From a candidate division TA06 bacterium SM23_40 (lineage in GTDB: Bacteria > LJUI01 > SM1-40), in assembly GCA_001303705.1 (NCBI GenBank), contig LJUI01000019.1:1-25143 (forward strand): DNA of 25,143 nt, written 5' to 3'. Of this stretch, positions 2,587 through 24,117 are shown in pieces (position 1 is the first letter of the stretch; each line of letters starts with the position of its first letter). The position numbers were made by a program, and so were the translations under genes. The notes under the pieces are model-generated. The model searched no databases and was not told the origin of the DNA. It was given only the letters and a program-made list of their open reading frames with translations.

Positions 2587-3726
2587 CTAGGGAACGACGT
2601 TCACGACGATCCCGTCCTGGAACTCCCACTCAGGGAAATCTCCGCACTTCATATAGAGATCCCACATCCCATGAGTGGTCGGGCAACCCGGCACATACTT
2701 CGTCACGAAGACATTGTACATGATCCCCGGCGCCAGAGTGACGTGCGCGACATCCCCGACCCACGTCTCTCCCGTCCCGACCTGGTGGGCCTCCATCCAG
2801 AGGTCCACCGCGACGGGAGCATCCGTATGATTCATCACGGATGCATTGAACGTGATCTCATCACCGGGCTGTTTCTCGATGTAGCGCGGGTTCAGATAGC
2901 AGGTGACCGGGTACAGCTGGGCGTTCAACCACAGGTCGATCTGATACGCGGTCTGGTTCTCCCAGTGGATCGTCCACAGATAGTGGCCGTCCCAGCACAG
3001 ATCGCGCGGATTCCAATACGGTGTCGCAATCGTGTTGAGAAGGGCACCCGTGTTCGGATCGTACCGGCTTACGGTCGACGCTACCCAATTGCTGTCCCAG
3101 ACATGGCTCCCGTCCCACGCGGCACCAACGGTAGTGCCGGTCCCGGGGAACGAAAAGACATTGTTGCCGGTGTAATAGTCATCCTGGTAGATCATTGCAG
3201 TCCCGTGGTCGGCCACCCACAACCACTGATCATTGTACGGATTGCCCCACTTCCCCCAGGTCATACCGTACCCGCCTGAGGAGGGCTGGCTGTAGTAGAC
3301 CATGCCCGTGTTCTTATCCGTAAAATGGGCAGTGTAGGCACCGTACTCGTTCTGAATGAGATACTGCCCATCCCAGGCCAGGCCATGAGCACCAGACCCG
3401 ACAGCCGCAAAGCTGTTGAGCACATCGCCGGTGGCCGGATCGAGCTCGTACATGACCAGGTCCCACAGATCGCAGACGAAGAGCGTGCCCTCAGTCTGAT
3501 CGCCCTCACACACCCAGACGATCGTCTGCACGCCCTGTGGCGTGGGGATCGAATGGACGACGTCATCGGTCGCCTGACCAGCTACAGGCCCAGCATGAGC
3601 GACGATCTCCAGCGTGGCATCGTCACGCCCATCCCCGTCCATATCCACAACTGCCGACAGGTCTGCGGCTGCTGCCGCGAACGCGATCATGGAGATCGCC
3701 ACAAAAATAGTGAGAGTGCGTCGCAT
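2587..3726 (-). CDS. Secreted Trp-rich repeat (propeller-like) protein, paralogue 2
   Basis: 379 aa, with signal peptide MRRTLTIFVAISMIAFAAAA. The mature N-terminus carries DMDGDGRDD (29-37), a DxDxDG calcium-loop-like element that paralogue 1 lacks. The rest follows paralogue 1 almost segment by segment: IVWVCEGDQ, ELDPATGDVLNSF, HGLAWDGQYLIQN, GKWGNPYNDQWLWVAD, GAAWDGSHVWDSNW, RYDPNTGALLNTI, DLCWDGHYLWTIHW, then a C-terminal Ig-like region from LYPVTCYLNPRYI. A tandem duplication followed by divergence is the simplest explanation. Each copy has its own promoter and long leader, so they are not one operon. The start is the only Met that gives a complete signal peptide. Function unknown. Confidence 0.85.
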   Translation of the reverse strand: MRRTLTIFVAISMIAFAAAAADLSAVVDMDGDGRDDATLEIVAHAGPVAGQATDDVVHSIPTPQGVQTIVWVCEGDQTEGTLFVCDLWDLVMYELDPATGDVLNSFAAVGSGAHGLAWDGQYLIQNEYGAYTAHFTDKNTGMVYYSQPSSGGYGMTWGKWGNPYNDQWLWVADHGTAMIYQDDYYTGNNVFSFPGTGTTVGAAWDGSHVWDSNWVASTVSRYDPNTGALLNTIATPYWNPRDLCWDGHYLWTIHWENQTAYQIDLWLNAQLYPVTCYLNPRYIEKQPGDEITFNASVMNHTDAPVAVDLWMEAHQVGTGETWVGDVAHVTLAPGIMYNVFVTKYVPGCPTTHGMWDLYMKCGDFPEWEFQDGIVVNVVP

Positions 3727-4157: not shown

Positions 4158-4186
4158 TTGACAGACTGACCGGAGTACTTTAGTAT
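4158..4186 (+). promoter_or_regulatory. Predicted sigma70 promoter of the ArsR-type operon
   Basis: Perfect -35 TTGACA (4158-4163), a 17-nt spacer and -10 TAGTAT (4181-4186). Transcription would start at about 4192-4194, 50 nt before the arsR-type ATG. The -10 overlaps the dyad at 4184-4205, the arrangement expected for a repressor. Confidence 0.75.
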
Positions 4187-4205
4187 TTAAGCAGACACTT
4201 AAATA
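4184..4205 (+). promoter_or_regulatory. Dyad operator, probably for the adjacent ArsR-type repressor
   Basis: TATTTAAG (4184-4191) and CTTAAATA (4198-4205) are exact reverse complements separated by 6 nt. The A/T-rich palindrome covers the end of the -10 and the start site, as in ArsR/SmtB operators. Autoregulation is inferred from position. Confidence 0.65.
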
Positions 4206-4242
4206 TTGCTGCCGGCTTTTCCACTAACAGAGACGTTCGCCA

Positions 4243-4581
4243 ATGGCTCAGTCCCAGAAGCTTGCCCGGATGTTCAAGGCACTGTCGGTCGACACGAGGG
4301 TTCAGATCGTCATGCTCCTCAGAGGGAGGGCCCTCTGTGTCAACGTCCTCGCCGCAAGACTCAATGTCTCGGCAGCGGCCGTGTCACAGCATTTGCGGGT
4401 GTTGCGCGGGGCAGATCTTGTCATCCCGGAGAAGCGGGGCTATTACGTTCACTATAGACTCAACGAGGAGACGCTGGCGAAGTGGAAGCATGCCGCCGGT
4501 CGGCTCCTCGAGACCCCCACCACGGTGCGGCCCGCTGCCTGCGCCGCCGCGAAACGCTCAAAGAAGAAGAAGGATGAGTAA
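4243..4581 (+). CDS. ArsR/SmtB-family winged-helix regulator
   Basis: 112 aa. The family core is clear: LARMFKALSVDTRVQIVMLL, then a helix-turn-helix at about 35-57 (LAARLNVSAAAVSQHLRVLR) and a wing at 58-72 (ADLVIPEKRGYYVHYRL). ArsR/SmtB repressors release DNA on binding metal or metalloid ions. In the classic alpha-3 site (ELCVCDL) two or more cysteines are present; here the matching segment is ALCVNVLA with only Cys32. A second cysteine, Cys100, lies in the Ala-rich tail. The sensing chemistry therefore cannot be assigned. The tail ends in a Lys stretch (KRSKKKKDE). The gene follows a promoter with a dyad operator and is followed 1 nt after its stop by a Cys-rich small protein. Repression of this operon, possibly in response to a metal, is the likely role. 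Confidence 0.85.
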   Translation: MAQSQKLARMFKALSVDTRVQIVMLLRGRALCVNVLAARLNVSAAAVSQHLRVLRGADLVIPEKRGYYVHYRLNEETLAKWKHAAGRLLETPTTVRPAACAAAKRSKKKKDE

Positions 4582-4582
4582 C

Positions 4583-4732
4583 ATGGGTGAGGAGAAGAAG
4601 AAAGGTTGCCAGAAGCCCGAAGCCCTCAAAGGCGAGCCAGAAGAGTGCACCCCTGAACAGATCAGGGAGTGCCACGGCGACGTCAAAGACCACCCCTGTG
4701 TCGACGAGGAGAAGAAGAAGGGCAACGTCTGA
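4583..4732 (+). CDS. 49-aa Cys/His-rich small protein next to the ArsR-type regulator
   Basis: The product is highly charged, with four cysteines and two histidines: C9, C22, C30-H31 and H37-x-C39, in the order GCQKPEALKGEPEEC, then CTPEQIRECHGD, then HPC. It has Lys-rich ends and no signal peptide. The pattern suggests binding of a thiophilic metal or metalloid. From memory, similar PEEC(S/T)PEQIRxCHGD segments occur beside or fused to ArsR proteins in anaerobes and archaea, but I could not check this. The ATG at 4583 lies 1 nt after the arsR-type stop and has AAGGA at about 8 nt. An in-frame ATG at 4574 would overlap the upstream gene by 8 nt and add MSN. Translational coupling is likely. 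Metal buffering or delivery to the regulator or transporter is an inference. Confidence 0.75.
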   Translation: MGEEKKKGCQKPEALKGEPEECTPEQIRECHGDVKDHPCVDEEKKKGNV

Positions 4733-4771
4733 ACCGGTCCCTCGTTCGCACACGGCCAGGTACCCGCGTGG

Positions 4772-4935
4772 TGGTCGCTGCCCCGGGAATCTGGCTGCGG
4801 AGGTGCGTTGTCTGACTGAGGGACGCTATCTGCCCGAGGGGCGCCATCTGCCTGTGGTCCTGGCTGCCTGACGAGCGCCAGCTACTCGATGAGTGTCAGC
4901 TCGCAAAGGGCCTTATCCGCCCGGGAAGTGCCAAC
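4772..4935. repeat. Degenerate 18-bp tandem repeats between the Cys-rich gene and the ABC ATPase gene (array D)
   Basis: Nine or so diverged units fall into an 18-nt period, clearest at 4811-4864 (TCTGACTGAGGGACGCTA, TCTGCCCGAGGGGCGCCA, TCTGCCTGTGGTCCTGGC) and traceable to 4935. The core TCTGCCnnnGGGG and the period match the array at 7481-7732. Stops interrupt the frames, so it does not look coding. It fills most of the 236-nt gap inside the presumed operon. Confidence 0.6.
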
Positions 4936-4968
4936 TGCCTCCCAACGATGGAGCGCGTGCGATAGCCG

Positions 4969-5904
4969 ATGGATGAGATGATCAGAGTCCGTGGGCTCAC
5001 CCGACACTACGGTGAACTCGTCGCGGTGGACCACATCGACTTCGAGGTACACCGGGGAGAGATCTTCGGCTTCCTCGGCCCCAATGGCGCGGGGAAGACG
5101 ACTACGATCAGAATGCTCACCGGAGTCATTGACCCTACGGAAGGTTCTGCCTCAATCGACGGGCATGACATACGGACCAAGGCCATCGCAGCCCGGCGCC
5201 ACCTGGGCATCCTCCCTGAGGATGCCAACGTCTATGTGGATCTGACCGTGTGGCAGAATGTAATGCTAATGGGGGAACTGCTTGGCGCGGGACGCAGGGA
5301 ACGGCGACTGCGGGGCGAAGAGCTCCTGGAGACGTTCGGCCTCCAAGACCGCAGAGCCCAAAAGGGACGCGCGCTCTCCAAGGGGTTGCGGCAGCGGTTG
5401 ATGGTCTGCATGGCCCTGATCGGGGATCCGGACCTCCTCTTCCTCGACGAGCCCACGAGCGGCCTCGACGTGGCCAGCGCTCGCCTCATCCGTCAGATCG
5501 TGGCAGAACGAAACCGAAGGGGGTTGACGGTCTTCCTCACCACTCACAACATGGGGGAGGCGGAAGAACTCTGCGACCGGGTTGCGATCATCGACCACGG
5601 CAAGATCGCTGCGATCGATACGACCGAGGGTCTCATGCGGGTTGCGAGGTCGCGCCAGTCTGTCGACGTCGAGTTCGCCGGCGAGTCACCTCCCGCAGCC
5701 GAACTGGAGGCTATCCCCGATGTGACCGCTGTGAAGCGGGATGCCTCCAGATATGTGTTGTACTCGGAGCAACCAGGGCAGGTCGCCCAGCAGATCGCTA
5801 CCCTCGCCACAGAGCGAGGATATGATATCGCCGCTATCTCGACTCGTAAGCCCTCTCTCGAGGACGTCTATCTCTTCCTCACTGAGTCGAACGGATCTCC
5901 CTAA
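4969..5904 (+). CDS. ABC transporter ATP-binding protein, ABC-2 type exporter
   Basis: 311 aa, one nucleotide-binding domain. Walker A is GPNGAGKT (37-44), the signature loop is LSKGLRQR (136-143), Walker B is LLFLDEP with D160 and E161, and the switch His is H193 (TTHN). The Q-loop position reads LPEDANVY, with Glu in place of Gln, a variant seen in this subfamily. Residues 220-311 form the C-terminal extension typical of ABC-2 exporter ATPases (ending RKPSLEDVYLFLTES). The partner permease starts 13 nt after the stop. Either ATG 4969 or ATG 4978 could be used; neither has a clear ribosome site. The substrate is unknown. Position in the ArsR-type operon hints at export of a metal-related or toxic compound, but the 236-nt repeat-filled gap leaves co-transcription unproven. 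Confidence 0.9.
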   Translation: MDEMIRVRGLTRHYGELVAVDHIDFEVHRGEIFGFLGPNGAGKTTTIRMLTGVIDPTEGSASIDGHDIRTKAIAARRHLGILPEDANVYVDLTVWQNVMLMGELLGAGRRERRLRGEELLETFGLQDRRAQKGRALSKGLRQRLMVCMALIGDPDLLFLDEPTSGLDVASARLIRQIVAERNRRGLTVFLTTHNMGEAEELCDRVAIIDHGKIAAIDTTEGLMRVARSRQSVDVEFAGESPPAAELEAIPDVTAVKRDASRYVLYSEQPGQVAQQIATLATERGYDIAAISTRKPSLEDVYLFLTESNGSP

Positions 5905-5917
5905 CGGAGGTGTGGTC

Positions 5918-6688
5918 GTGAGTACGGCGGAGAGCGGATCAGCCCTCCTCAGCCAGCAGGCCCGTGGCGCAGTGACGGTCGCAAAGAAGAATGCCCTCAT
6001 CTACTACTTCAAGCCGCCGGTGCTGATCTTCGGCGTTCTATTCCCGGTCTTCTTCTTTCTCGCTTTCAGCCTCGGCCGCAGCATGCCGGCAGATCGCATC
6101 GTGCCGGCCATGGTGGCAATGGCCCTCTGGTTCACTGCCTCCGCCGTCGGCCCGCTCGTCACTCCGTGGGAACGTACGTCTCGGACATACGAACGCCTCA
6201 TCTCCACCCCCATAGCCATCCAGGCGATCGTCGCCGGCGACGTCCTGAGTGGCTTTGCCTTCGGGATCAGCTTCTCACTTGTGCCACTCCTGCTGGGACT
6301 GGCCTTCACCGACACAGCAGTGGCCTCCGCAACATCCCTTGTCTGCGGAATCGTACTGGGTGCGCTGGCGTTTTCATCACTCGGCGTACTCCTCGCCGCA
6401 CCGCCCGTGCACGGCCCCTCATACATTATGATGCTCTCCAACCTCGTCCGACTCCCCCTCCTGTTCGTGAGCGGGATATTCGTGCCGATTGCCGAGATGC
6501 CGGCCTGGGCACGATGGCTCGCACCGATCTCCCCGCTCTCGTACTGTGCCGACTGTATCAGGCGCGGCTTCGGGGAGACCGGCTATTTCCCCTTCTGGCT
6601 GAACCCGCTCATGCTTGTCCTCTTCTCCGCTCTCTTCTCATGGGCTGCGTGTCGCTTTCACATTCGCTCACGCGCCCACGGATTGTAG
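5918..6688 (+). CDS. ABC-2 type transporter permease
   Basis: About 256 aa with six hydrophobic segments. The first follows KKNALIYYFKPP, and a YISPLSY-like element (LAPISPLSYCADCIRRGF) lies before the last one, both usual for ABC-2 permeases. The frame is open further upstream, but GTG 5918 is chosen because CGGAGG (5905-5910) sits 7 nt before it and the preceding codons overlap the ATPase gene. It would form a homodimeric channel driven by the ATPase encoded just upstream. Its last 21 nt overlap the convergent DUF72 gene. Confidence 0.85.
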   Translation: MSTAESGSALLSQQARGAVTVAKKNALIYYFKPPVLIFGVLFPVFFFLAFSLGRSMPADRIVPAMVAMALWFTASAVGPLVTPWERTSRTYERLISTPIAIQAIVAGDVLSGFAFGISFSLVPLLLGLAFTDTAVASATSLVCGIVLGALAFSSLGVLLAAPPVHGPSYIMMLSNLVRLPLLFVSGIFVPIAEMPAWARWLAPISPLSYCADCIRRGFGETGYFPFWLNPLMLVLFSALFSWAACRFHIRSRAHGL

Positions 6689-7462: not shown

Positions 7463-7480
7463 CGCTCTCCACCTCCTCTC

Positions 7481-7732
7481 TCTGCCTTCTAGATTCTGTG
7501 TGCCGTGGGGATCCTCTCTGCCACGTGGATTCTATCTGCCGCGGGGATCCTGTCTGCCGTAGGGTCTCTGTCTGCCCCTCGGATCCTGTCTGAGGTAAGA
7601 ATCTTGTCTGCCGTGGGGTCTCTATCTGCCCCGCGGCTCCTGTCCGCCGCGGGGTCTCTGTCTGACCCGGAAGTCCTGTCTGACCCGGAAGTCCTGTCTG
7701 CCATAGGGAATCTGTCTATCACAGTGATCCTG
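7481..7732. repeat. 18-bp tandem array, 14 units in perfect register (array A)
   Basis: Fourteen consecutive 18-nt units run from 7481 to 7732 with no insertion or deletion. The consensus is TCTGCCGTGGGGATCCTG. Units 11 and 12 (7661-7696) are identical; the others differ at several positions. The first half (TCTGCC) and the end (CCTG) are most conserved. On the minus strand it lies immediately before the DUF72 ribosome site. There are no unique spacers, so this is not a CRISPR array. Confidence 0.9.
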
Positions 7733-7811: not shown

Positions 7812-7860
7812 CGATCTAATTCCGACCGCCGAGTTCGACGAAACGGGAGCAGGTGGCCCT

Positions 7861-8099
7861 TTCAACGGGAGCGTGTAGCCCCTCCAACAGGAGCGTATGA
7901 CCCCTTCAACAGAAGCGTGCGGCCCTTTCAACAGAAGCGTGTGGCCCCGTTCAACACGAGCGTGCGGCCCTTCAACGGAAGCGTACGGCCCTTCAACGGA
8001 GGCGTGCGGCCCTTCAACAGGAGCGTGCGGCCCTTCAACAGGAGCCCATCACTCCTTCAACGGGGAGGTGTCACCCGTTCACCAGGACCGCCCACCCTG
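7861..8099. repeat. 21-23 bp tandem array in the MFS leader (array B)
   Basis: Eleven units begin TTCAAC (or TCCAAC/TTCACC) at 7861, 7883, 7905, 7927, 7950, 7971, 7992, 8013, 8034, 8056 and 8078. The core is TTCAACAGGAGCGTGCGG followed by CCC. The four central units (7950-8033) are exactly 21 nt; outer units are 22-23 nt and more diverged. Because length varies by 1-2 nt, no reading frame is kept across the array. Several units carry AGGAG or GGGAG, which resembles a ribosome site, followed one base later by GTG. Confidence 0.9.
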
Positions 8100-9451: not shown

Positions 9452-9961
9452 CTAGAGGAACCGCTCGAACCGCTCCTTCTTCGCCTTGCATACTGGACAG
9501 ATCTCGGGGGGGCCATCACGCGCGCAGAGGTACCCGCAGACGCGGCATCGCCACACGGGCAGGGAGAGAGATGAGACGGCCACGGACGGCGCGCCCCCTT
9601 CTCGCTTCTGCCGCTCCTCCGCTGACGGTCGCCGCTCCGGTATCGAACCGACAGCTTTCTTCCCTTCGAGGACATCCTGTGAGACATAGAGGGCGCAGTA
9701 GCATGAACCATGCTCGGTCAGGTCCGCATCCCGGTAATCACACGGACATATGATATCGAGATCATCGTCTTTCACCCCGGAAGCCAACCTGCAGGGACAC
9801 GCCCAATACCCGTACCTCTTCTCATTGATGAGCAAGCTCCTGACCAGATCCTTGGCGAACTCCTCATCCGGATTGAGATGATACCCGGAGGCCTCCGCCT
9901 CCTTGTCCAGTCTCCCATAGAGGGCCTGGATCTCTTTCTGCTCGACATCGATTTTCTTCAT
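9452..9961 (-). CDS. ftrB: Ferredoxin:thioredoxin reductase catalytic subunit fused to a rubredoxin-like domain
   Basis: 169 aa. Residues 1-105 are the FTR catalytic chain, with all six cysteines in three C-x-C pairs: C55/C57, C72/C74 and C87/C89. These hold the [4Fe-4S] cluster and the redox disulfide. After a charged linker (106-133) comes a short rubrerythrin-type rubredoxin domain ([22 protein letters not shown]) with C139, C142, C155 and C158 as iron ligands. The enzyme passes electrons from ferredoxin to a thioredoxin- or glutaredoxin-like protein. The rubredoxin tail could let it accept or donate single electrons. No variable (FTRv) subunit gene is nearby, as in methanogen-type enzymes. 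Its ATG overlaps the stop of the CGWC glutaredoxin-like gene (ATGA), so that protein is its probable partner. Confidence 0.9.
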
Positions 9962-10239
9962 ATGCCGATCGCCTCCCGAATCCGCGCTTCATCGAACCCG
10001 ACAACGCTCTTCTCGTCATTGATCACCAATGTGGGGAACGAGGTCCTGGGGCTCCACCGCCTCATCTCCTTCTCCGCTTCCGTCTTCTCCTTGCCCTTCA
10101 GGAGGTCAACATCGATGTATTCGTACGCCACGCCCAGGTTCTGTAGCAGGCGTTTCGTCTTCCTGCACCATCCACAGGTGCTCAGAGCAAAGAGGAAGAT
10201 GTGCCCTCTGTCCTTACCCTTAACATGCGTCGCCTTCAT
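9958..10239 (-). CDS. Glutaredoxin-like protein with CGWC active site
   Basis: 93 aa with the glutaredoxin/NrdH layout: beta strand HIFLFALS, active site TCGWC (C22 and C25), [18 protein letters not shown], the cis-Pro segment SFPTLVI, and [13 protein letters not shown] at the end. CGWC with a Grx-like body is common in anaerobes that use FTR-type reductases. It probably shuttles electrons from the FTR encoded next to disulfides in target proteins. The ribosome site GGGAGG lies 8 nt before the ATG. It is 3 nt downstream of the nitroreductase gene and overlaps ftrB by 4 nt, so the three are surely co-transcribed. Confidence 0.88.
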
Positions 10240-10242
10240 GTA

Positions 10243-10803
10243 CTATGCCTCCCTGTGCCTGTTCATGTGAGCAAACTGCTCGATCGGCATGCGCTCCGGC
10301 CTGTTCTTCTCCCACTCGATCTGCTTGTCAGAGAGCACGGGGCTTATCTCCTCCGCATGCTTGCCCACTATGACGAGCGTGATGAGCCTCATCTCCTCTG
10401 GTATCCCGAGAATCTCCTTGGCCTTGGCCTCATCGAATCCGGCGATGGGATGCGCCACAAGCCCCAGCTCAGTGGCCCGGAGGATGATGAACGCTGTAGC
10501 CATACCTGTATCGAACAGATAGTACACTCGGCCTTTCAGGTCGCAGTCCAGATCTCTCCGGGTGTGCACCGCTATGATGAGCGACGCCTGATACGCCCAT
10601 TCATTGCCTTTCGACAGGGCAGTGCGAAGTTGTCTCAGCACCGCCTCCTCATATGCGAAGACAAACCTCCAGGGCTGATTATTGAAGCAGGAGGGCGCCA
10701 GTTGGGCGTTCCCCGCCAGGTCTCGCACGCGCTCCTCGTCGATCTCCACGTACTCCAGGGAGCGGTACGCCCTCCGTTCCCGTATCGCTTGCTGTACGTC
10801 CAT
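10243..10803 (-). CDS. Nitroreductase-family FMN oxidoreductase
   Basis: 186 aa from ATG 10803, a usual size. It begins MDVQQAIRERRAYRSLEYVE, the phosphate-binding RRSxR region, followed by LAPSCFNNQPWRFVF, the FMN-contacting motif, and GLVAHPIAGFDEAKAKEILGIPE with RLITLVIVGK near the end. Such proteins reduce nitro compounds, flavins or other electrophiles with NAD(P)H. The frame extends to GTG 10812, but that GTG lies inside the GGGAGGTG ribosome site; ATG 10803 is spaced correctly (8 nt from GGAGG). It is 21 nt after the DUF1122-like gene and 3 nt before the glutaredoxin-like gene. The physiological substrate is unknown. Confidence 0.88.
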   Translation of the reverse strand: MDVQQAIRERRAYRSLEYVEIDEERVRDLAGNAQLAPSCFNNQPWRFVFAYEEAVLRQLRTALSKGNEWAYQASLIIAVHTRRDLDCDLKGRVYYLFDTGMATAFIILRATELGLVAHPIAGFDEAKAKEILGIPEEMRLITLVIVGKHAEEISPVLSDKQIEWEKNRPERMPIEQFAHMNRHREA

Positions 10804-10824
10804 ACATTTCACCTCCCGTTCCGT

Positions 10825-11511
10825 CTATCCCAAGCTCGCGCCCGTCTTCACCACCCCATCTATCTTCTCCAAAACGGATCTACTCCTCTCTGCCGCTCTC
10901 GCCAGCCATCTCTCATATTCGTCACCCGAATCTCCCGATGCATCCCCTACTTTCTCAAGATATGCTGTCACCTCATCCCGAATACCACGCACGTGGCGCT
11001 CCCGTCTCGTCTCATCGAGCGGCTTCTCTCCCTGAAGCTTCATCCCCCCCTCGCTTCCCCCTTCCGGGAAGTACCAGTCCTTGAACCATGTGAATCCAAG
11101 TTCAAACAGCTTGGAGCCAAGACGAGTTATAGCAGGGGGAACCCCGTACCGCAGGCCGTACAAGGTCTCTCTGTCGGCCTGATACTCGACGTAGATCTTC
11201 CCTCCCGGACCGAGATCCCTCGAAAACAACTCCAACAGCCTGTCCTCAAAGATCGAACCGAAATATTCGATTCTTGTCCCCAGATCTATCTGTGGACGAA
11301 TACCGGAAATCTCTACCCACGGCCGATAGTACGGCTCCCTGCCGTAGTAGACTTTGACGTGCAGAAGCCGATCTTCGTGTGCGGCTTTCTTTCCGTACAC
11401 AACCAGATTGGCCTCTTCACTGAACCTCCCGGCCGTGATCTCTTTTGCATAGAGGGTAGTCCCGTCGACCTCAATCCCCCTATTCAGGTGTTGAACGTCC
11501 TCTCTGAGCAT
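10825..11511 (-). CDS. Conserved protein resembling DUF1122
   Basis: 228 aa, soluble, no signal peptide. The middle contains SRDLGPGGKIYVEYQADRE, LRYGVPPAITRLGSKLFELGFTWFKDWYFPEGGSEGGMKLQGEKPLDE, a strongly patterned block that I recall from the DUF1122 family of archaeal and bacterial proteins of unknown function; I could not check this. The N-terminal half (YGREPYYRPWVEISG) is mixed alpha/beta. The last 60 residues are charged and helical. It sits in the redox island 21 nt before the nitroreductase gene and is probably first in a four-gene unit with nitroreductase, glutaredoxin-like and FTR genes. The start has only a weak ribosome site (GAGCCGAG). Confidence 0.65.
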   Translation of the reverse strand: MLREDVQHLNRGIEVDGTTLYAKEITAGRFSEEANLVVYGKKAAHEDRLLHVKVYYGREPYYRPWVEISGIRPQIDLGTRIEYFGSIFEDRLLELFSRDLGPGGKIYVEYQADRETLYGLRYGVPPAITRLGSKLFELGFTWFKDWYFPEGGSEGGMKLQGEKPLDETRRERHVRGIRDEVTAYLEKVGDASGDSGDEYERWLARAAERSRSVLEKIDGVVKTGASLG

Positions 11512-11880
11512 CGCTCGGCTCTAATGCTGGCAGGTCCTGGTAGTTCTCTCGGCCACTGACCATTTCCAAATCTCGGCCTCGACATCTGTCACGAACGAGA
11601 CTTCTGGTGTCGTCTCCTACCACTGCACCGACCACCACTGCACCGACAACGGACTACGGCAGACTGCCCGGCACCTGACCCCTGAGAGCCCACACTGCAG
11701 CCTGGGCACAGTGCATCTCCCCGGACTGCCGACACTCCTCTGCATCCCGGTGCTTCATTTCCATCAGTAAGCTCGCATCTACCGTTCTTCGCATATACGA
11801 CATCGGCAGCCAGCCCCGCACATCGCTCTCAGATCTCCTGGCTCGTAGGACCCAAAGCCGGGATGGTCAGACACAATGGA
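11512..11880 (-). other. 369-nt gap between hrb and the DUF1122-like gene; short 15-bp repeat
   Basis: No gene is convincing here. CACTGCACCGACCAC (11621-11635) is repeated with one change at 11636-11650, and loosely similar C/G-rich stretches continue to about 11750. I found no clear promoter or terminator, so whether the DUF1122-like gene is transcribed with hrb is open. Confidence 0.4.
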
Positions 11881-12609
11881 CTAGCTCTGGGGCGAGAACT
11901 GATCTTTGGATGCTCCGCAGACGGGACAGACCCAGTCGTCCGGGACTTCTTCGAATGGAGTCCCCGGGGAGACGCCGTTCTCCGGATCCCCTTCCCCTGG
12001 GTCGTACACATAACCGCATACGTCGCACTCATACTTCACCATTGTCCCTGGCCTCCTTTCGGGAGCTGACGTTTGCACAGCAGACGTCGGCGCGGGTGTC
12101 CTGTATGTCGGGGCGTTCTTCGCAGTCTTCCCCTTCTTTGTCTCATGATAGTACGCGTATGTGAGCGGTCTGCCTTTCTTCAAGATTTCCCCGCTGACTA
12201 CTTCTCCCACGAATATCGTGTGGGTTCCTACGTCAGTCTGGTCGATGACACGTGCATCCATCACTGACAGCACGTTCTCGGTTACGAGAGGACACCCGGT
12301 CTCACCTGTCTGGTACACAGTCTGGGATAACTTATCCACATCCCTCCCCGACTTGAATCCAAACAGCCCTACGAACTTCATCGGCGTGGACTCTTCGAGA
12401 ATGGAGACCCCGAATACGCCACTCCGGGAGATATATTCATGTGTGAGGTTATCTTTGCTGATGCTGACAGCAATCCGCGGCGGCTCGGCGGTTACCTGGA
12501 TGACCGTGTTGGCTATCTGACCGTTGAGTTTGTCGTCGAGGCGAGAGGTGACAACATAGAGCCCATAACTCAAGTCGCACAGGCATTCGATGATCCCTTC
12601 ATCATTCAT
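11881..12609 (-). CDS. hrb: High-molecular-weight rubredoxin (flavin reductase domain fused to rubredoxin)
   Basis: About 242 aa. Residues 1-160 are a flavin-reductase-like FMN domain ([46 protein letters not shown]). A Pro/Thr/Ser-rich linker follows (165-190), then a rubredoxin ([17 protein letters not shown] and [15 protein letters not shown]) with four Cys iron ligands. In Moorella thermoacetica the homologue Hrb carries electrons from NADH to the FprA flavoprotein. Here fprA lies directly upstream and overlaps by 8 nt, so the same electron path is likely. ATG 12609 has AGGAG at 10 nt; GTG 12615 is an alternative that adds two residues. This is one of three rubredoxin domains in the island. 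Confidence 0.92.
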
Positions 12610-13813
12610 GGGCACAGATCTCCTCTAGCCGCTCAGCGACGAGCTTCCCCAGGGAACGGCATCGGGCCAGTGTCTCATCATCCGGCACGTACTTGATTTT
12701 GATGTCCTCACCGATCGGCTCGATCTTCATCTGGTTGAGTGCGTCCCTCACCTGCGCCACACCGTCACCGCTCCAGCCGTACGAACCGAACGCAGCCCCG
12801 ATCAGGTTCCGCGGCCTCAGGCCCTTGAGGTATGTAAGCACATCGGCCACCGTGGGGAAGATGTTGTTGTTGAGCGTTGGAGTGCCCACGATCAGGGCGC
12901 CGGCATCGAGTATCTCAGTCGCTACCTGGCTCCGATGGGTGGATGCGAGCGGCATCAGCCTGGCGCTCGCCCCACTCTCCACAAGTCCCTCCCCGATCGC
13001 CCGTGCCATCGCTGCTGTGCTCTGCCACATCGTGTCGTAGACGACCAGAGCCTTCAGCGTCGGCTTCTGAACACACCATCTCGCGTACCAGTCAACGATC
13101 CTCTGCACGTCCTTCCGCCAGATCGGCCCATGATCTGGCCCAATCGTCTCAATTGTCAAGCCGAGGCTATCTACCCTAGCAAGCAGTTTGGCGACAAGGG
13201 GGGAATAAGGCAGCAGGATGTTGGCGTAGTACTTCGCCGCTTCGTACTCTAGTACTCCGTCGTCGATCTCGTCCGCGAACCGCTCGCCCGATGCGAGGTG
13301 CATGCCAAAGGCATCCTGCGAAAAGAGGAGCTGATCTTCCCCCAGGTAGGTGAACATGCTGTCCGGCCAGTGGAGCATCCTGGTCTCGATGAATCTCAGC
13401 TCCACATTCCCGAGGCTGAGGCTCTCGCCATCCTTTACCGGGACGATCTCCCGATCCAGATGAAAATGCTCCAGAAGCGCCTTCGCGCCCATGACCGAGG
13501 CGAATACCTTCTCAGGCCTGACGATGTCCCATATATCGGCCAGGCATCCCGAGTGATCCATCTCAGAGTGGTTTGAGACGATGTACCTGATGTCGCGAGG
13601 ATCTATCACGGACGCGATGCGGGAGAGCAACTCATTCTTGAACGGTGCCTTGACCGTATCGATAAGCGTGACGGCATCTGCCATAACGAGGTAGGCATTG
13701 TAGCTCGATCCCCGGTCTGTGGAGTAGCCGTGGAAGTCGCGCACGGCCCAGTCGACCGCACCTACCCAGTACACATGTTCGCTCACGCGGACGGCCTTGA
13801 ACTGCTCGTTCAT
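12602..13813 (-). CDS. fprA: A-type flavoprotein (flavodiiron protein), O2/NO reductase
   Basis: 403 aa, complete. The metallo-beta-lactamase-like domain (1-250) carries the full diiron ligand set: H82-x-E84-x-D86 with H87 (NHSEMDHSG), H148 (MLHWPDSMF), D167 (FSQDAFG) and H228 (GPDHGP). The flavodoxin domain (253-400) has the FMN loop [14 protein letters not shown] and the later SYGWSGDG loop. FprA proteins reduce O2 to water or NO to N2O in the cytoplasm, using a rubredoxin donor. The hrb gene overlaps its end. The ATG has GGAGG 8 nt upstream, 21 nt after the ferritin-like gene. Confidence 0.95.
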
Positions 13814-13834
13814 GCCACGAACCTCCGCCGACAG

Positions 13835-14329
13835 CTAGTGTTTCGGAGACGATAGGTGCATGCTCAGGATTCCGATATGGCGCATCTCTTCCCTGATGAT
13901 CTCTTCGACCCACTCTCCTCCCAGTCTCTGGGGAACGACCTCCCTCATCCCCTGATAGAAGATGACAGAGTCCTTCTCGAGCTCGATGGCGATCCTCAGA
14001 ACATCATCCATCGCCTCTTTCCCGGACAGGAGGTCAGTCGGATCGGCGTCCACATCGAAGATTCGCTTGTCCGCGATCGCCCGAAGGTACAGGGGAACCT
14101 GACCTTCCGGATCCCATATGGTAGAAGCACGCTCATCCTCTGATAGTTGCGCCCTCATCGAAGCGAAGATCTTCTCATGCTGGTCCTCCATCGCTGCGAG
14201 GTCGAGCAATATCTTACGTCCCCCTGCATCGCCTGCACCCTCCGCCGCGCGGCGATAGAACTTCGCTCCGTTCCGTTCGATCTGTTCCGCCATCTCGAAG
14301 ATCTCGTCAGCATTGAAATCAACACTCAT
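13835..14329 (-). CDS. Ferritin-like (rubrerythrin-type) diiron four-helix protein without rubredoxin domain
   Basis: 164 aa, all helical. Diiron ligands appear in the expected spacing: E18 (EQIERNGAKFYRRAA), E48 with H51 (MEDQHEKIF), E118 (IELEKDSVIFYQGM) and E148 with H151 (REEMRHIGIL). The family covers rubrerythrin-like peroxidases and related diiron proteins; lack of a rubredoxin tail means an outside electron donor is needed. It sits between the HMA gene and fprA (21-nt gap) in the stress island. GGGAG precedes the ATG. Peroxide reduction is more likely than iron storage, but this is inference from the family. Confidence 0.8.
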   Translation of the reverse strand: MSVDFNADEIFEMAEQIERNGAKFYRRAAEGAGDAGGRKILLDLAAMEDQHEKIFASMRAQLSEDERASTIWDPEGQVPLYLRAIADKRIFDVDADPTDLLSGKEAMDDVLRIAIELEKDSVIFYQGMREVVPQRLGGEWVEEIIREEMRHIGILSMHLSSPKH

Positions 14330-14460
14330 GGTCTCTCTCCCTGTGTTATCTACAGCCAGATAGGGTGGGAATATGCCATGTTCACCGGACCATAACTCCC
14401 GACTCCCTCGTGCTCAGAATCGCCATGATCGATCCCTGGCTCCATCAGAATCGACCGAGG

Positions 14461-14658
14461 CTAGCCGATCTCATATCCTGCCCCTACTATGCGCTCCCTG
14501 ATTGTCTCCATTTGCACGGGCTTCAGTTCCTCGAACGTTGCCTCTCCTCTGGCCAGATCGACGTTCACGTTCTCGATACCCTCGACCTCGCTGAGAGCTT
14601 TCTTCACAGCCATGACGCAATGCTCGCACGTCATCCCCTTCACCTTGATGGTCCTCAT
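14461..14658 (-). CDS. Heavy-metal-associated (CopZ-like) domain protein
   Basis: 65 aa, a single HMA domain: MRTIKVKGMTCEHCVMAVKK with the metal-binding GMTCxxC motif (C11 and C14), then VEGIENVNVDLARGEATFEE and the C-terminal helix. It binds soft metals such as Cu(I) through the two cysteines and acts as a cytosolic chaperone in known cases. ATG 14658 is chosen because AAAGGAGACGGGG precedes it and the protein then starts exactly at the domain; the frame extends 69 nt further upstream without homology. No copper ATPase is present in the window, so its partner is unknown. Confidence 0.9.
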   Translation of the reverse strand: MRTIKVKGMTCEHCVMAVKKALSEVEGIENVNVDLARGEATFEELKPVQMETIRERIVGAGYEIG

Positions 14659-14740
14659 CGCCCCGTCTCCTTTCCTGTTACACGATATATGTGAAGTGTA
14701 CCCTGTCCTGCTCCCCCGCAGACCCATCTCTGCCGATCAG

Positions 14741-14983
14741 CTATGCGTCATTTCCTATGAGCCTGCGCTTCCAGAAGACCATGATACTGTCTTTGCCGAA
14801 GGCCATCTGGACCAGCTCCCACCCCACCCTTCCGCGGTCGTTCAGCAGATCACCGAGCACTTGCAGTTCATCGCCGGGCACTTGATCTGCGGAGCATTCG
14901 CCGGTCTCGGAACAGAAGTAGACCACTTTGCGGAATGTCTCCGCTGGATGTACGGTGATCTCGTACTCAAATCGTTCCACCAT
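14741..14983 (-). CDS. DUF4177-like small protein
   Basis: 80 aa. MVERFEYEITVHPAET opens a beta strand, and LLNDRGRVGWELVQMAFGKDSIMVFWKR is the characteristic (L/I)N..G.xGWELV...x..FWKR end of DUF4177-type proteins. Two cysteines (C24 and C30, in YFCSETGECSADQ) lie in the insert between the halves. Function is unknown. It is the first gene after a predicted internal promoter (15025-15052) and has GGGAG just before the ATG. It could be a minor member of the stress regulon. Confidence 0.75.
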   Translation of the reverse strand: MVERFEYEITVHPAETFRKVVYFCSETGECSADQVPGDELQVLGDLLNDRGRVGWELVQMAFGKDSIMVFWKRRLIGNDA

Positions 14984-15342
14984 GATCTCCCTTCTGTCGT
15001 TTGATATCAGCAGATGCTGCCAACTCTATACGCTCCCTCAGTCCTCTGTCAATATCGATCGAGCATATCCCGATTCCCCGCCCTGGCGGGCCCCGCCGCG
15101 TCTATCTCCGCGGCCTCGTGACTCCCTTCCGGAACACGCCCGCACCCCCCTGCCGGCACACATCGCCACTCCCCTGATATCTGCCGGCTGTTACCTGATC
15201 TCCGCGCGGGAGCGCGGGAGCGAAGACTGCCGCCGCACCGCCCTATCCCCGGGCGATGCCAGGATCGAGCGAGACGGCGGCCATGATACGGAAGCAGACT
15301 GCGCCCCCTGCGCAGCGCGCTCAGAACGTGTCGCTGGTCACC
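14984..15342 (-). other. 359-nt gap between ferritin and DUF4177 genes
   Basis: It holds the internal promoter at 15025-15052. The remainder (15053-15342) is very GC-rich, with loosely repeated CTGATATCTGCCGGC and CTGATCTCCGCGCGG at about 15175-15210. I see no gene and no clean terminator, although the ferritin transcript probably ends here. Confidence 0.4.
15025..15052 (-). promoter_or_regulatory. Internal sigma70-type promoter for DUF4177 and downstream genes
   Basis: On the minus strand TTGACA (15047-15052), a 16-nt spacer and TATAGA (15025-15030). The start site would be about 35 nt before the DUF4177 ATG. No copy of the perR dyad is visible here. Confidence 0.6.
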
Positions 15343-15858
15343 CTACTCAGCGGGGGCAGCAGGCATAGTGAAGACTCGCTGGCCCAGCTCCTGATCGACC
15401 ATGAACATACCGCCACCGGCATCACCGACAAGCTTCAGCTTCTGGACTATGTCGTTAGCCGACGCCTCCTCCTCCACCTGCTCGGAGACGAACCACTGGA
15501 GGAAGTTGTTCGTGGCGTGATCCTTTTGCTCTATTGCGAGGTCGACCAGGTGGTTGATCAAGCCGGTCACGGTCTGCTCATGCCGGTACGTGTGCTCGAA
15601 CGCGTCCAGTGGTGACTTCCATTCCGCCTGCGGCCCCTCTACCGGCCCGAGGGTGACTCGTCCCCCGCTCTCATTCACGTAGTCGTAGAACTTCATTGCA
15701 TGGACGAGCTCCTCCTGTGCCTGCACACGCATCCAGTTAGCGAAGCCAGCCAGATTGACAGACTGGAAGTAGGCTGACATCGACAGATAGAGGTACGAGG
15801 AGTAAAGCTCCGCGTTGAGCTGCTTGTTGAGTGCCTCCTGCATCTTTTTGCTCACCAT
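15343..15858 (-). CDS. ftn: Bacterial non-haem ferritin
   Basis: 171 aa, FtnA-type. Ferroxidase ligands are in place: E17 ([14 protein letters not shown]), E50 and H53 ([14 protein letters not shown]), E94 ([33 protein letters not shown]), and E127/E130 ([11 protein letters not shown]). Residues 36-44 (LAGFANWMR) fit the family. It forms a 24-subunit iron-storage shell in known members and removes Fe2+ that would feed Fenton chemistry. ATG 15858 is preferred: AAAGGAT lies about 7 nt upstream and the gap to the superoxide reductase gene is then 5 nt. The earlier in-frame ATG (15876) would overlap that gene. Confidence 0.93.
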
Positions 15859-15863
15859 GACAT

Positions 15864-16238
15864 CTATCCTTTCCATAGACCGTGGACGTTACAGTACTCT
15901 CTTGCAGTCACCTTATCCGCTTTGATGGCAAACGTTGCTTCGGGCGCGTCTCCGGGCTTCAGGAAATGCCGATATGCGTTTCTGTCGGCTATCAGCTGGA
16001 TCCACTCGATGTAGTGTTTCTCCTCCATCGGATGGGCAACGCTCCCCACCTTCACCATAACGCCGCTGGCGGTCTTCTCGATCACCGGAACATGCTTCTC
16101 CTTTGCGGCGTCGGTCGTGTTTTCCTTGAACAGAACCATCGGCTGGTCGCAGCAGACCAGCTCGCCCTGTCCTTCATGGAGAACTTCGACGATGTTCCCG
16201 CAGATTTCGCACTTGTAGATCTGGAGCCTCTCTGTCAC
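15864..16238 (-). CDS. dfx: Desulfoferrodoxin, two-centre superoxide reductase
   Basis: 124 aa. The N-terminal desulforedoxin centre has C10, C13, C29 and C30 ([19 protein letters not shown]). The catalytic Fe centre has H49, H69, H75, C116 and H119 ([33 protein letters not shown]), with the conserved E47-K48 beside the active site. It reduces superoxide to H2O2 without making O2, using rubredoxin-type donors. The H2O2 is then handled by rubrerythrin and Tpx from the same cluster. The start is GTG at 16238 with AAGGAGGAGG just upstream. Confidence 0.96.
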
Positions 16239-16312
16239 TTTCCTCCTCCTTCTGAGACGAGTAGAACGTCACTCGACCGACAACAGGCGGGAGGGTCAGC
16301 ATCCTCCGCCCA

Positions 16313-16828
16313 TCAGGTCAACTCCCTCACTGCATTCAGTACTGCCTCGTAGTCCGGCTCGTTCGTCACCTCCGGCACGAACTGGATGTAGCGAATGGTG
16401 CCCTCCCGATCGACCACGAAAATCGCACGCCCCAGCAATCTGAGATCCTTGATCAGAACGCCGAATGCAGTGCCGAATGAGGCATCACGGTAATCTGACA
16501 GCGTCACAACTCTTGTTACCCCTGCGGCGCCGCACCAGCGTTTCTGGGCAAACGGGAGGTCCATGCTGATGGTGAGAATCACAACATCCGATCCCAGACG
16601 GGCGGCCTCTTCATTGAACCGCCTCGTCTCCATATCACAGACGGCCGTGTCCAGAGACGCTACCGAAGATATGACACAGACTTTCCCGCGATAGGAAGAC
16701 CCCTTGACCGGAGCCATGTCGTTCGCGATCACCTCGAACTCAGGAGCACGGTCGCCGACCTTGACCTCATCGCCTACCAGGGTCACGGGCTTCCCTTTCA
16801 TCGTTATGAGTCCAGTTCTCTCGTTCAC
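16313..16828 (-). CDS. tpx: Atypical 2-Cys peroxiredoxin, thiol peroxidase
   Basis: 171 aa, standard Tpx length. NERTGLITMKGKPVTLVGDEVKVGDRAPEF is the family N-terminus. The peroxidatic cysteine is C64 in LDTAVCDMETRRFNEEA (Txx C motif with T61), and the resolving cysteine is C99 in KRWCGAAG. A further cysteine at 51 is not catalytic in the family. It reduces H2O2 and alkyl peroxides and is re-reduced by thioredoxin-like proteins, here possibly the FTR and glutaredoxin-like pair. The start is GTG 16828, fixed by homology; GAGGAT and GGAGG lie close upstream. Confidence 0.94.
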   Translation of the reverse strand: MNERTGLITMKGKPVTLVGDEVKVGDRAPEFEVIANDMAPVKGSSYRGKVCVISSVASLDTAVCDMETRRFNEEAARLGSDVVILTISMDLPFAQKRWCGAAGVTRVVTLSDYRDASFGTAFGVLIKDLRLLGRAIFVVDREGTIRYIQFVPEVTNEPDYEAVLNAVRELT

Positions 16829-16897
16829 GCCTCCATCCTCTCTGCGGATGTGATTCTACCATCGTAGGTGCTACTCTCTGGCCCTGTTTGCACCTCT

Positions 16898-17473
16898 CTA
16901 CCAGTTCTCACAGAGCAACTCGTAGTACGCCTGAGGGTGTGCGCAGGCGGGACATTCATTGGGAGCCTCCGGGCCCTCGTGCAGATACCCGCAGTTGATA
17001 CACCGCCACACCACCGGCTTGTCCTTCTTGAAGATCTTACAGGCCTCCACGTTGGCAAGAAGACCCAGATAGCGCCTCTCGTGCTGTTTCTCGGCCACGG
17101 CGATCGAGGTGAAGATGGCGGCGATCTCGTCGAAGCCTTCCGCCTCCGCCACCTTGGCAAACTCCGGATACATCTCTGCCCACTCGTAGTGCTCTCCGCC
17201 GGCCGCTCCCTTGAGGTTTTCCGCAGTCGTCCCTATGATTCCCGCGGGGAACGCGGCCCGAACCTCGACCTCGCCGCCTTTGAGCTCCTTGAACAGCCGC
17301 TTGGCGTGTTCCTTTTCCTGGTTGGCCGTCTCTTCGAAGATCTGCGCGATCTGGACGTATCCGTCTTTCTTTGCCTGGCTCGCGAAATAGGTATAGCGAT
17401 TCCTCGCCTGCGACTCACCGGCGAACGCCGTTAAGAGATTCTTCTCCGTCTTCGACCCCTTCAGCTGCATCAT
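16898..17473 (-). CDS. rbr: Rubrerythrin
   Basis: 191 aa. The diiron four-helix domain carries E20 ([15 protein letters not shown]), E53/H56 ([11 protein letters not shown]), E94/E97 region ([14 protein letters not shown]) and E128/H131 ([12 protein letters not shown]). The C-terminal rubredoxin has C158, C161, C174 and C177 ([30 protein letters not shown]). It is a cytosolic NADH-linked peroxidase in anaerobes. The ATG overlaps the perR stop (ATGA), so the two are translationally coupled. GGAGG lies 4 nt before this ATG and 7 nt before the next one at 17470. Confidence 0.96.
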
Positions 17474-17973
17474 CGTTCCTCCTCTGTGCCCGTGTCACGG
17501 GTCAGTTCGTGAGATTTCTGTTCCTCCGCGGCTTCCGTGGCGTCCAAGCCGCGGTGAGCATGTTGCCCTTTCTGTCTGCACTGTGGACACAAGCCAACGA
17601 ATTCCAACTTATACCCTACCACCTCGTACTCCGTCAACCCCTGAAGAACATCATCCACCGCCGCGATCGGCTCAATCTCCACATCATCCACGCGCCCGCA
17701 CCGGAGGCAGCGCACATGGTAGTGGTTCTCAAGGAACCCGTCAAACCGCCGTTGACCGCCCCCCTCCAGCTTCTGGATCATGCCGTGCCGGGACAGGAGC
17801 TCGAGGTTGCGGTACACAGTGCCCAGACTGATATGGGGCAGCCGCTGCCGGACCATCTCATACACCTCATCCGCTGTGGGGTGTGAATCTACCCGCCGCA
17901 GTTCTTCCAAGATGGCCCGCCGCTGCATCGTCATCCGTAGGTCTTCTCGTACCATGTGTAAGTCTTTGTTCAT
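17470..17973 (-). CDS. perR: Fur-family repressor, PerR type
   Basis: About 167 aa. The winged helix spans 10-80 ([47 protein letters not shown]). The structural zinc site is C89-x2-C92 and C129-x2-C132. The sensing site has H31, D78 (RRFDGF), H84 and H86 (ENHYHVRC). Asp rather than Glu at position 78 is the residue typical of peroxide-sensing PerR. The frame is open upstream to 18144, but ATG 17991 lies inside the dyad operator, so ATG 17973 is preferred. The last 30 residues ([22 protein letters not shown]) are a family-atypical charged tail. It leads the stress island, has its own strong promoter and is probably autoregulated. Confidence 0.88.
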
Positions 17974-17989
17974 CAATCTCTTATCTCCC

Positions 17990-18018
17990 ATAATGGTAAC
18001 AACAATCGTTACTATTAT
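17990..18018 (-). promoter_or_regulatory. 29-bp dyad operator in front of perR
   Basis: On the plus strand ATAATGGTAAC (17990-18000) and GTTACTATTAT (18008-18018) are inverted repeats with one mismatch in 11 and a 7-nt centre. It lies directly downstream of the -10, covering the start site, and is A/T-rich like PerR and Fur boxes, though the half-sites are not the Bacillus PerR consensus. Autorepression is the likely use. Confidence 0.75.
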
Positions 18019-18019
18019 C

Positions 18020-18048
18020 AATATACACGGCGAAGCCCACGATGTCAA
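18020..18048 (-). promoter_or_regulatory. Strong sigma70 promoter of the perR-rbr operon
   Basis: On the minus strand a perfect TTGACA (18043-18048), a 17-nt spacer and TATATT (18020-18025). The start site falls in the dyad operator, about 40 nt before the perR ATG. Confidence 0.85.
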
Positions 18049-18353
18049 GGACTTTTGTCGAGATTTTTCCAAGACCGTGCGCAAAATCCGGTGCGAATTT
18101 CCGGCATGTCCTGTCACAACATATTGAATGCTGGAAAGTTGCATAATAGACTTCGGAGATTAGCACGTTGAACGCACTGAAGGATTCTACTATGCGAAAG
18201 AAACGGTGTATCCTCTGCAGCGGCAGGACTTTGAGCAGGACCGATCGCAACAGGGTATCCAGGGCTCGCCTCCCCCAATCCGCTTAGAAGCCCGACCTAT
18301 CGACAGTTAATCGCTCCGGACCAACCTCTCGATCACCGCAGCCGAGAATCGAT
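18049..18353 (+). other. Spacer between the divergent perR and protease promoters; one doubtful 31-aa ORF
   Basis: There is no established gene. A 31-codon frame at 18192-18287 (MRKKRCILCSGRTLSRTDRN...) has AAGGA 7 nt before its ATG, a CxxC pair and a very basic composition. No good promoter is placed for it and I know no homologue. The rest shows nothing I can name. Confidence 0.3.
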
Positions 18354-18383: not shown

Positions 18384-18449
18384 GTTGGCGCAGCACCCCG
18401 GGGCGGGCAGACCGAGCAACGCACGGGGGCCGACACCGCAGCTGCCCGG

Positions 18450-18677
18450 GTCTTGTGCGTGCCCAGGTCTTGTGCGTGCCCAGGTCCGACGTGCGCCCAG
18501 GCCCGACATAAGTGCAGGTTCTACGTGCGTGCGCGTCCTATGTTTGTGCGCGTCGGCGGATGCTATGTGTTTGCGGATCCTGCGCATCTGCGGATGCTAT
18601 GTGTGTGCGGATCCTGCGTGTGCGGGGATCCTGCGTGTATGTCCGTCCTGGGTGTATGTCCGTCCTGCGTGTGTGCA
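18450..18677. repeat. 17-bp tandem array in the protease leader (array C)
   Basis: Thirteen 17-nt units plus one 7-nt partial unit (18552-18558) run without other indels. The later units read GATCCTGCGTGTGTGCG or close to it; the first two (18450-18483) are identical copies of GTCTTGTGCGTGCCCAG. Units change gradually along the array, as in an old tandem expansion. The unit has no stop codon in any plus frame, which explains the long open frames here. The 17-nt length excludes a repeated peptide. There are no spacers, so it is not CRISPR. Confidence 0.88.
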
Positions 18678-22851: not shown

Positions 22852-23130
22852 ATGCCCATCCAGAAGAAGCGGGAAGTGATCACTTTCAAGGTTGACGAAT
22901 CCCTGTCGGAGGCAATGCAGGGCATGCAAAACCGATCGGAATTCATACGGAGAGCGATCCTTGCGGCGCTCGACGGCGTCTGCCCGTTGTGCAAAGGGGC
23001 GGGGGTACTCACTCCGAAGCAGCGTGTCCATTGGGAAGCATTCAGCACGGACCACTCTCTTGCCGAATGCACTGACTGCCATGCGATCCACCTCGTCTGC
23101 CTGGCGGCAAAAGATGAGTCGACGCACTGA
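22852..23130 (+). CDS. Ribbon-helix-helix regulator with Cys/His-rich tail, probable zinc-uptake regulator
   Basis: 92 aa. Residues 8-41 form a CopG-type ribbon-helix-helix (EVITFKVDESLSEAMQGM, RSEFIRRAILAAL). The tail (44-83) has C44-x2-C47, H60, H68, C73-x2-C76-H77, H80 and C83, enough for one or two zinc sites. Such a layout resembles NikR in concept, DNA-binding plus metal-sensing, but the tail is not an ACT domain. It is first in an operon with znuA, znuC and znuB, so zinc-dependent repression of uptake is likely. ATG 22852 has GGAGGA 5 nt upstream. The stop is TGA at 23130, overlapping a possible upstream start of znuA at 23114. Confidence 0.82.
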   Translation: MPIQKKREVITFKVDESLSEAMQGMQNRSEFIRRAILAALDGVCPLCKGAGVLTPKQRVHWEAFSTDHSLAECTDCHAIHLVCLAAKDESTH

Positions 23131-23182
23131 GCGGTACGCAGAATCCGTACGTCGAGTATACATAAGAGCGAGCGCTTTGCCC

Positions 23183-24064: not shown

Positions 24065-24117
24065 GGTGGGGATCTCGTGCGAGAGGATTTTCCGCCAGTT
24101 CACCTACGGGACAGAAC

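Follow-up and report, generated by a model that had tools for sequence, protein, structure and literature searches.

A conserved Cys/His mini-protein encoded beside, and elsewhere fused to, ArsR-family regulators as a candidate co-sensor

Described systems and the operon in the window

The metal sensors of the ArsR/SmtB family (SmtB, CzrA, CadC, CmtR, ArsR) share with the regulator described below a winged-helix fold and an operator-like repeat over their own promoter. Their class-defining sites are ELCVCD or CxCxxC motifs in alpha3/alpha3N and DxHx10HxxE in alpha5 (PMC8960804). Annotation often labels ArsR proteins lacking recognizable metal sites as metalloregulators, which leaves no means of testing for their signal. 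Where a small conserved partner is encoded next to such a regulator, or is fused to it or nested within it, that partner is a concrete place to seek the ligand. An ArsR-family protein with a separate partner has been described in Streptomyces griseus, where SrnR does not bind metal alone and works with the metal-binding protein SrnQ in a nickel-responsive system.

The window analyzed here comprises 25,143 nucleotides of contig LJUI01000019.1 from candidate division TA06 bacterium SM23_40. The original prediction, read from the DNA letters, placed in it a consensus promoter overlapped by a perfect 8-bp inverted repeat, an ArsR protein without the classic two-Cys motif, a 49-residue protein with four Cys and two His starting 1 nt downstream, and an ABC-2 exporter, and each of these elements is present (Table 1). 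As in SrnR/SrnQ, an ArsR-family DNA-binding protein is accompanied by a separate partner, metal binding having been reported for SrnQ in its description and being presumed for the mini-protein, and SrnR is among the PDB matches both by sequence and by fold. Unlike the operon in the window, however, the system as described there targets sodF rather than an exporter, SrnRQ represses with nickel, and that description includes no fused or nested form of the kind found at the loci below. The proposed likeness is one in way of working only, SrnQ being known here by description, and no membership is claimed.

Table 1. Coordinates of the operon features in the window
Feature	Position	Strand	Characteristics
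Sigma-70-like promoter	4158..4186	+	-35 TTGACA (4158-4163), 17-nt spacer, -10 TAGTAT (4181-4186); 10/12 consensus matches
Operator-like inverted repeat	4184..4205	.	TATTTAAG-N6-CTTAAATA; perfect, 22 bp, across the -10 box
ArsR/SmtB-family regulator, 112 aa	4243..4581	+	HTH_5 E=4.5e-13; NF033788 78.3 bits (cut-off 55); stop codon 4579-4581
Cys/His mini-protein (CHGD/HPC module), 49 aa	4583..4732	+	Conserved in 31 aligned relatives
Spacer, 236 nt	4733..4968	.	Degenerate 18-nt repeats at 4811-4854; no terminator found
ABC ATPase, DrrA-like	4969..5904	+	TIGR01188 (drrA) 312.0 bits (cut-off 312.45); PF00005 and DrrA1-3_C
ABC-2 permease, DrrB-like	5918..6688	+	PF01061 E=3.3e-18; TIGR01247 E=8.7e-16, below cut-off

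The regulator scores 49.3 bits against PF01022 (cut-off 22), which places it in the ArsR/SmtB superfamily, and falls far below the cut-offs of the equivalog models for CmtR (NF047906, 42.5 bits against 150) and BigR (NF040642, 38.6 bits against 155). Its only cysteines are C32 and the tail residue C100. In contrast to the classical sensors, it contains no CxC pair, ELCVCD, CxCxxC or alpha5 DxHx10HxxE motif, the segment corresponding to ELCVCD reading ALCVNV with a single Cys. C32 occupies the first Cys position of that motif and is invariant in all 21 aligned partner ArsRs, with the second Cys missing; none of the 21 harbors CxC, and seven (L015, L026, L031, L032, L053, L054 and L062) lack the tail Cys as well. 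Judged by these motifs, the partner ArsRs are without the complete metal sites of the ArsR/SmtB family. The predicted structure of a fused relative has a clear ArsR fold (pLDDT >90 for residues 1-80), and a Foldseek search with this model matched ArsR-family structures, SrnR included.

The two cysteines of the regulator in the window equal the number seen in BigR/SqrR-type sensors (PMC8960804), and would suit a redox or reactive-sulfur response in which thiol oxidation or persulfidation, rather than a metal, relieves repression, as in the ArsR-fold proteins BigR, SqrR and RexT. A gene for a DsrE protein added to the operon at L022 and sulfur-transporter-like neighbors at some other loci (the latter read from sequence) fit this explanation too. 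We nevertheless consider it quite unlikely, because the tail Cys is dispensed with in a third of the partner ArsRs, the BigR score is far under the cut-off, and the conserved His pair of the mini-protein suits a metal better.

The pattern TATTTAAG-N6-CTTAAATA, with up to three mismatches allowed, has its sole match in the window at the position given in Table 1 (0 expected), and a single perfect copy in the whole 2.88-Mb genome. Perfect inverted repeats as such are not rare, 19 of 8 bp with spacers of 2-12 nt occurring in the window; this one gains credibility because its half-sites and 6-nt spacer recur 5' of ArsR at unrelated module loci. TTAG-N6-CTAA or TTAAG-N6-CTTAA was found in 12 of 29 regions (~195 nt) upstream of ArsR, against a background of 26 matches in 461 kb that itself counts these sites and duplicate copies of loci, and a TTGACA-like box lies 5' of the repeat in most of the partner-locus sequences displayed. 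A search for a second operator in the genome returned only a match with three mismatches, such as a reversed control pattern gave as well, and this candidate was rejected as not credible. Since the genome contains one perfect site, the regulator would act locally on its own operon, and the recurring operator supports a local autorepressor, repression itself being predicted. No second copy of ArsR or of the mini-protein was detected in this genome at the thresholds used.

Conservation and neighborhoods of the Cys/His module

The mini-protein, MGEEKKKGCQKPEALKGEPEECTPEQIRECHGDVKDHPCVDEEKKKGNV, has the pattern C-x12-C-x7-CH-x5-H-x-C, with C9, C22, C30, C39, H31 and H37 as ligand-type residues. 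An in-frame ATG at 4574, overlapping the ArsR stop codon, could extend it to 52 aa; the start at 4583 is preferred because AGGA at 4571-4574 fits it. The absence of an assigned function, noted in the original prediction, holds: neither Pfam nor NCBIfam gave a match for the mini-protein at E<=1, and the 31 module members had none in Pfam. A profile of the module found nothing credible in the PDB (best E=1.4), matching no metallothionein or zinc-finger structure; plasmid, phage and viral collections contained no relatives, and a search of the available literature for the motif found no paper. None of the 31 aligned relatives deviates at C9, C22, C30 or H31, and H37 and C39 each occur in at least 90%. 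The mini-protein is a real, conserved and unannotated protein, and its Cys/His pattern suggests metal binding. At 40-60 aa, the family so named is easily overlooked by gene callers. Structure prediction of the module alone was of low confidence (pLDDT 62), and a fold search with that model was set aside for this reason; in the prediction of the fusion the module is likewise a floppy, low-confidence appendage. A secreted-peptide reading was dropped because the mini-protein has no leader and, at other loci, the module forms part of a cytoplasmic regulator. One further match (L003) was rejected as a module, its score being low and the profile search having missed it.

Most relatives start with MC, from which the mini-protein in the window differs, and extra N-terminal cysteines vary among modules (MC, CC, CGCGC). 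Modules also occur in tandem, three at L014 and two at L017. At L096 there are two repeats, the first with altered Cys (IYHGD) and possibly decaying. Such variation in thiol number agrees with a metallothionein-like buffer or scavenger induced together with the exporter, the ArsR sensing the ion by itself through C32 and the tail Cys, and the unrelated small Cys-rich proteins encoded after other ArsR genes speak for it as well. As the main rival to co-sensing by ArsR and module, this explanation strikes us as unlikely: a buffer has no need of fusion to ArsR, yet the module is fused at 14 loci, and where the tail Cys is lacking the regulator is left with one thiol.

The original prediction had proposed a regulator/mini-protein/exporter unit, and a search for the pattern and its gene neighbors finds the unit conserved far beyond the window. 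A genome-wide scan identified 32 module loci; the module was matched in 13 of 386 surveyed genomes and in 29 of 395 genomes of one further phylum (inferred to be Desulfobacterota-type), the genome of the window being the sole one of its phylum in the comparison. In total, 63 distinct loci are distributed over many bacterial phyla, for the most part anaerobe-type lineages without cultured members. The gene just upstream of the module is a separate ArsR at 29 loci, an ArsR fused to it at 14, and a PadR at three (one, L028, called through PF03551 and the other two by similarity), with neither regulator at 17. Eleven of the modules without an upstream regulator belong to the first set (L013, L016, L019, L023, L024, L027 and L033-L037), and the module may therefore have roles of its own.

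Several neighbors recur. A class-I SAM methyltransferase is encoded between module and exporter at L014, L022 and L026, and methyltransferases lie just 5' of the module at L023 and L034. MOT1-type molybdate transporters occur near the module at L019 and L030. At L057 a MoaE-like gene (weak match) adjoins the fused gene and is followed by a MOT1-like gene read from sequence, and ArsC-like genes, likewise read from sequence, adjoin L058 and L060. Taken as raw occurrences, the neighbors suggest a connection to thiophilic metals, metalloids or sulfur chemistry.

A DrrAB-type exporter or its remnant lies downstream at 27 of the 63 loci; an ABC sequence was flagged at 28, of which L019 was discounted because its ABC ATPase is distant and unrelated. 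The exporter in the window resembles DrrAB in both subunits, its ATPase falling just short of the drrA cut-off and its permease being related to DrrB, and differs in its operon partners, an ArsR and a Cys/His mini-protein. Transfer of the metal from module to transporter, one of the roles originally suggested, agrees with the shared operons but is weakened by the remaining 36 loci, an upper bound since several have short downstream flanks, which show no such exporter in the available DNA. Moreover, a CxxC in the permease of the window, considered as a metal site and rejected, is not conserved in 17 relatives, and at L018, L020 and L025 ArsR and module are kept while the exporter is broken. A metallochaperone function is thus highly improbable. 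The broken exporters (L018, 5114-5764; L020, 5172-5654; L025, 197-1096) each have the start of the ATPase joined in frame to part of the permease, at three different junctions beside an intact ArsR and module, and may be assembly errors.

Loss of the module from relatives that keep the regulator, which the original prediction had named as evidence against it, is seen in some less close relatives: at L117 an ArsR gene is followed directly by the ATPase, at L105 and L112 ArsR is present and the module absent, and at L111 a fused module is degenerate. The module is accordingly accessory and not obligatory. The ArsR profile search gives no rate of module-less regulators, its count being circular because the ArsRs used to build the query accompany the module in those very genomes.

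The known cargo of DrrAB transporters is mainly organic, and the signal could therefore be something other than a metal. The module could then be a structural helper that stabilizes ArsR, or a leftover domain, with the exporter handling an organic toxin sensed by ArsR. The exporter's DrrAB family matches, the module-less operon of L117 and the decayed fusion of L111 would be accounted for, but not the near-invariance of Cys and His over many phyla or the occurrence of the module with PadR and as an orphan gene, and we regard this as distinctly improbable.

ArsR genes without the module often precede other small Cys-rich genes (L116, L118, L120, L121, L122 and L126-L129), DUF5320-like or ending in CGC-x-PP, as if thiol-rich partners were recruited regularly. 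Their products resemble the mini-protein in being small, Cys/His-rich and encoded right after ArsR, and differ from it in sequence, one example matching DUF5320 weakly (E=0.001, below cut-off). A search of the available literature for an ArsR/DUF5320 pair found no paper.

Fused genes with a probable internal start

At the 14 fused loci the ArsR reading frame runs on into a C-terminal module. Twelve of these genes contain a strong Shine-Dalgarno sequence and an in-frame ATG 5' of the module, which makes it probable that both the fusion and the free module are produced. Eight have GAA-AGG-AGG-N9-ATG and four have AAG-GAG-G, coding KEG, KEV or KEE, at a distance of 8 nt from the ATG, such that the Shine-Dalgarno is read in either of two phases, as ERR or as KE[GVE]; weaker sites occur in the remaining two genes (L048/L057 and L079). 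Conservation of the ribosome-binding sequence, but not of the linker peptide, speaks for selection acting on the internal start. The internal Met is retained in 13 of 13 aligned fusions, and among in-frame starts the internal site ranks first by context in eight of nine fused genes tested. Shuffling of synonymous codons weakened the site (mean -6.8 kcal/mol, against -11.3 kcal/mol before shuffling), a result that is support and not proof because most single genes are not significant alone and the fused genes are related to one another. If true, the internal start would be another instance, comparable to Cas11b (PMC11899642), of two products made from a single reading frame.

The window itself carries the separate-gene form, and its operon is a variant ArsR-controlled export operon; the fused, probably nested form found outside it is the most surprising part. 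That the module, although fused there, keeps its own translation start suggests that ArsR and module sense something together, probably a thiol-loving metal or metalloid.

Proposed co-sensing and other features of the window

Operon layout, module conservation, fusion, the recurring operator and an ArsR without full metal sites are read from the sequence. From these we propose, tentatively, a self-regulated stress-response export operon, with the module serving ArsR as a thiol-metal-binding co-sensor; metal binding, contact with ArsR, the ligand, the direction of the response and the cargo of the exporter are the inferred parts. ArsR would bind the repeat over its own promoter and keep the operon down. 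The conserved Cys/His of the mini-protein would bind an ion, most likely a thiophilic metal or metalloid. Touching ArsR, the mini-protein would control operator binding, such that the DrrAB-type exporter is made once the ion or its conjugate appears. In other bacteria the module would be built into the ArsR C-terminus and probably also be translated separately from the internal start. Co-sensing is favored on three grounds: the incomplete site of ArsR, the conserved ligands of the module and the evolutionary fusion of the two. The original proposal that the module supplies the missing ligands gains indirect support from the fusions, the single invariant Cys of ArsR and the exchange of ArsR for PadR.

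An ArsR just upstream of or fused to the module at 43 of the 63 loci, together with the PadR cases, counts for co-sensing; the 17 loci with neither regulator just upstream, the module-less operon of L117 and the low-confidence structure predictions count against it. A broader version, on which we place less confidence, is that the module is a widespread, hitherto undescribed co-sensor domain of ArsR and PadR in anaerobe-type bacteria, occurring as a separate protein, a C-terminal fusion or nested in frame so that one reading frame gives both fusion and free module, and that the response may be set by competition or assembly between these two forms.

Read from sequence, the minus strand at 9452-18144 carries an oxygen-defense gene cluster of the kind found in anaerobes, with rubredoxin-, rubrerythrin-, desulfoferrodoxin-, ferritin- and Fur-like genes and an FprA-like flavoprotein gene, and possible zinc/manganese uptake genes (a ZnuA-like binding protein and an ABC ATPase) lie at 22892-24879; the module at L013 is likewise beside ZnuA-like/ABC uptake genes. 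The minus strand of the region upstream of the ArsR operon encodes a pair of related exported proteins (~360-380 aa; 904-1989 and 2587-3726), probably a duplication. Degenerate tandem repeats of 17-21 nt, several with a TCTGCC core, occur in and between genes at 7478-7717, 7855-8045 and 18443-18676, in addition to those between mini-protein and ATPase (4811-4854).
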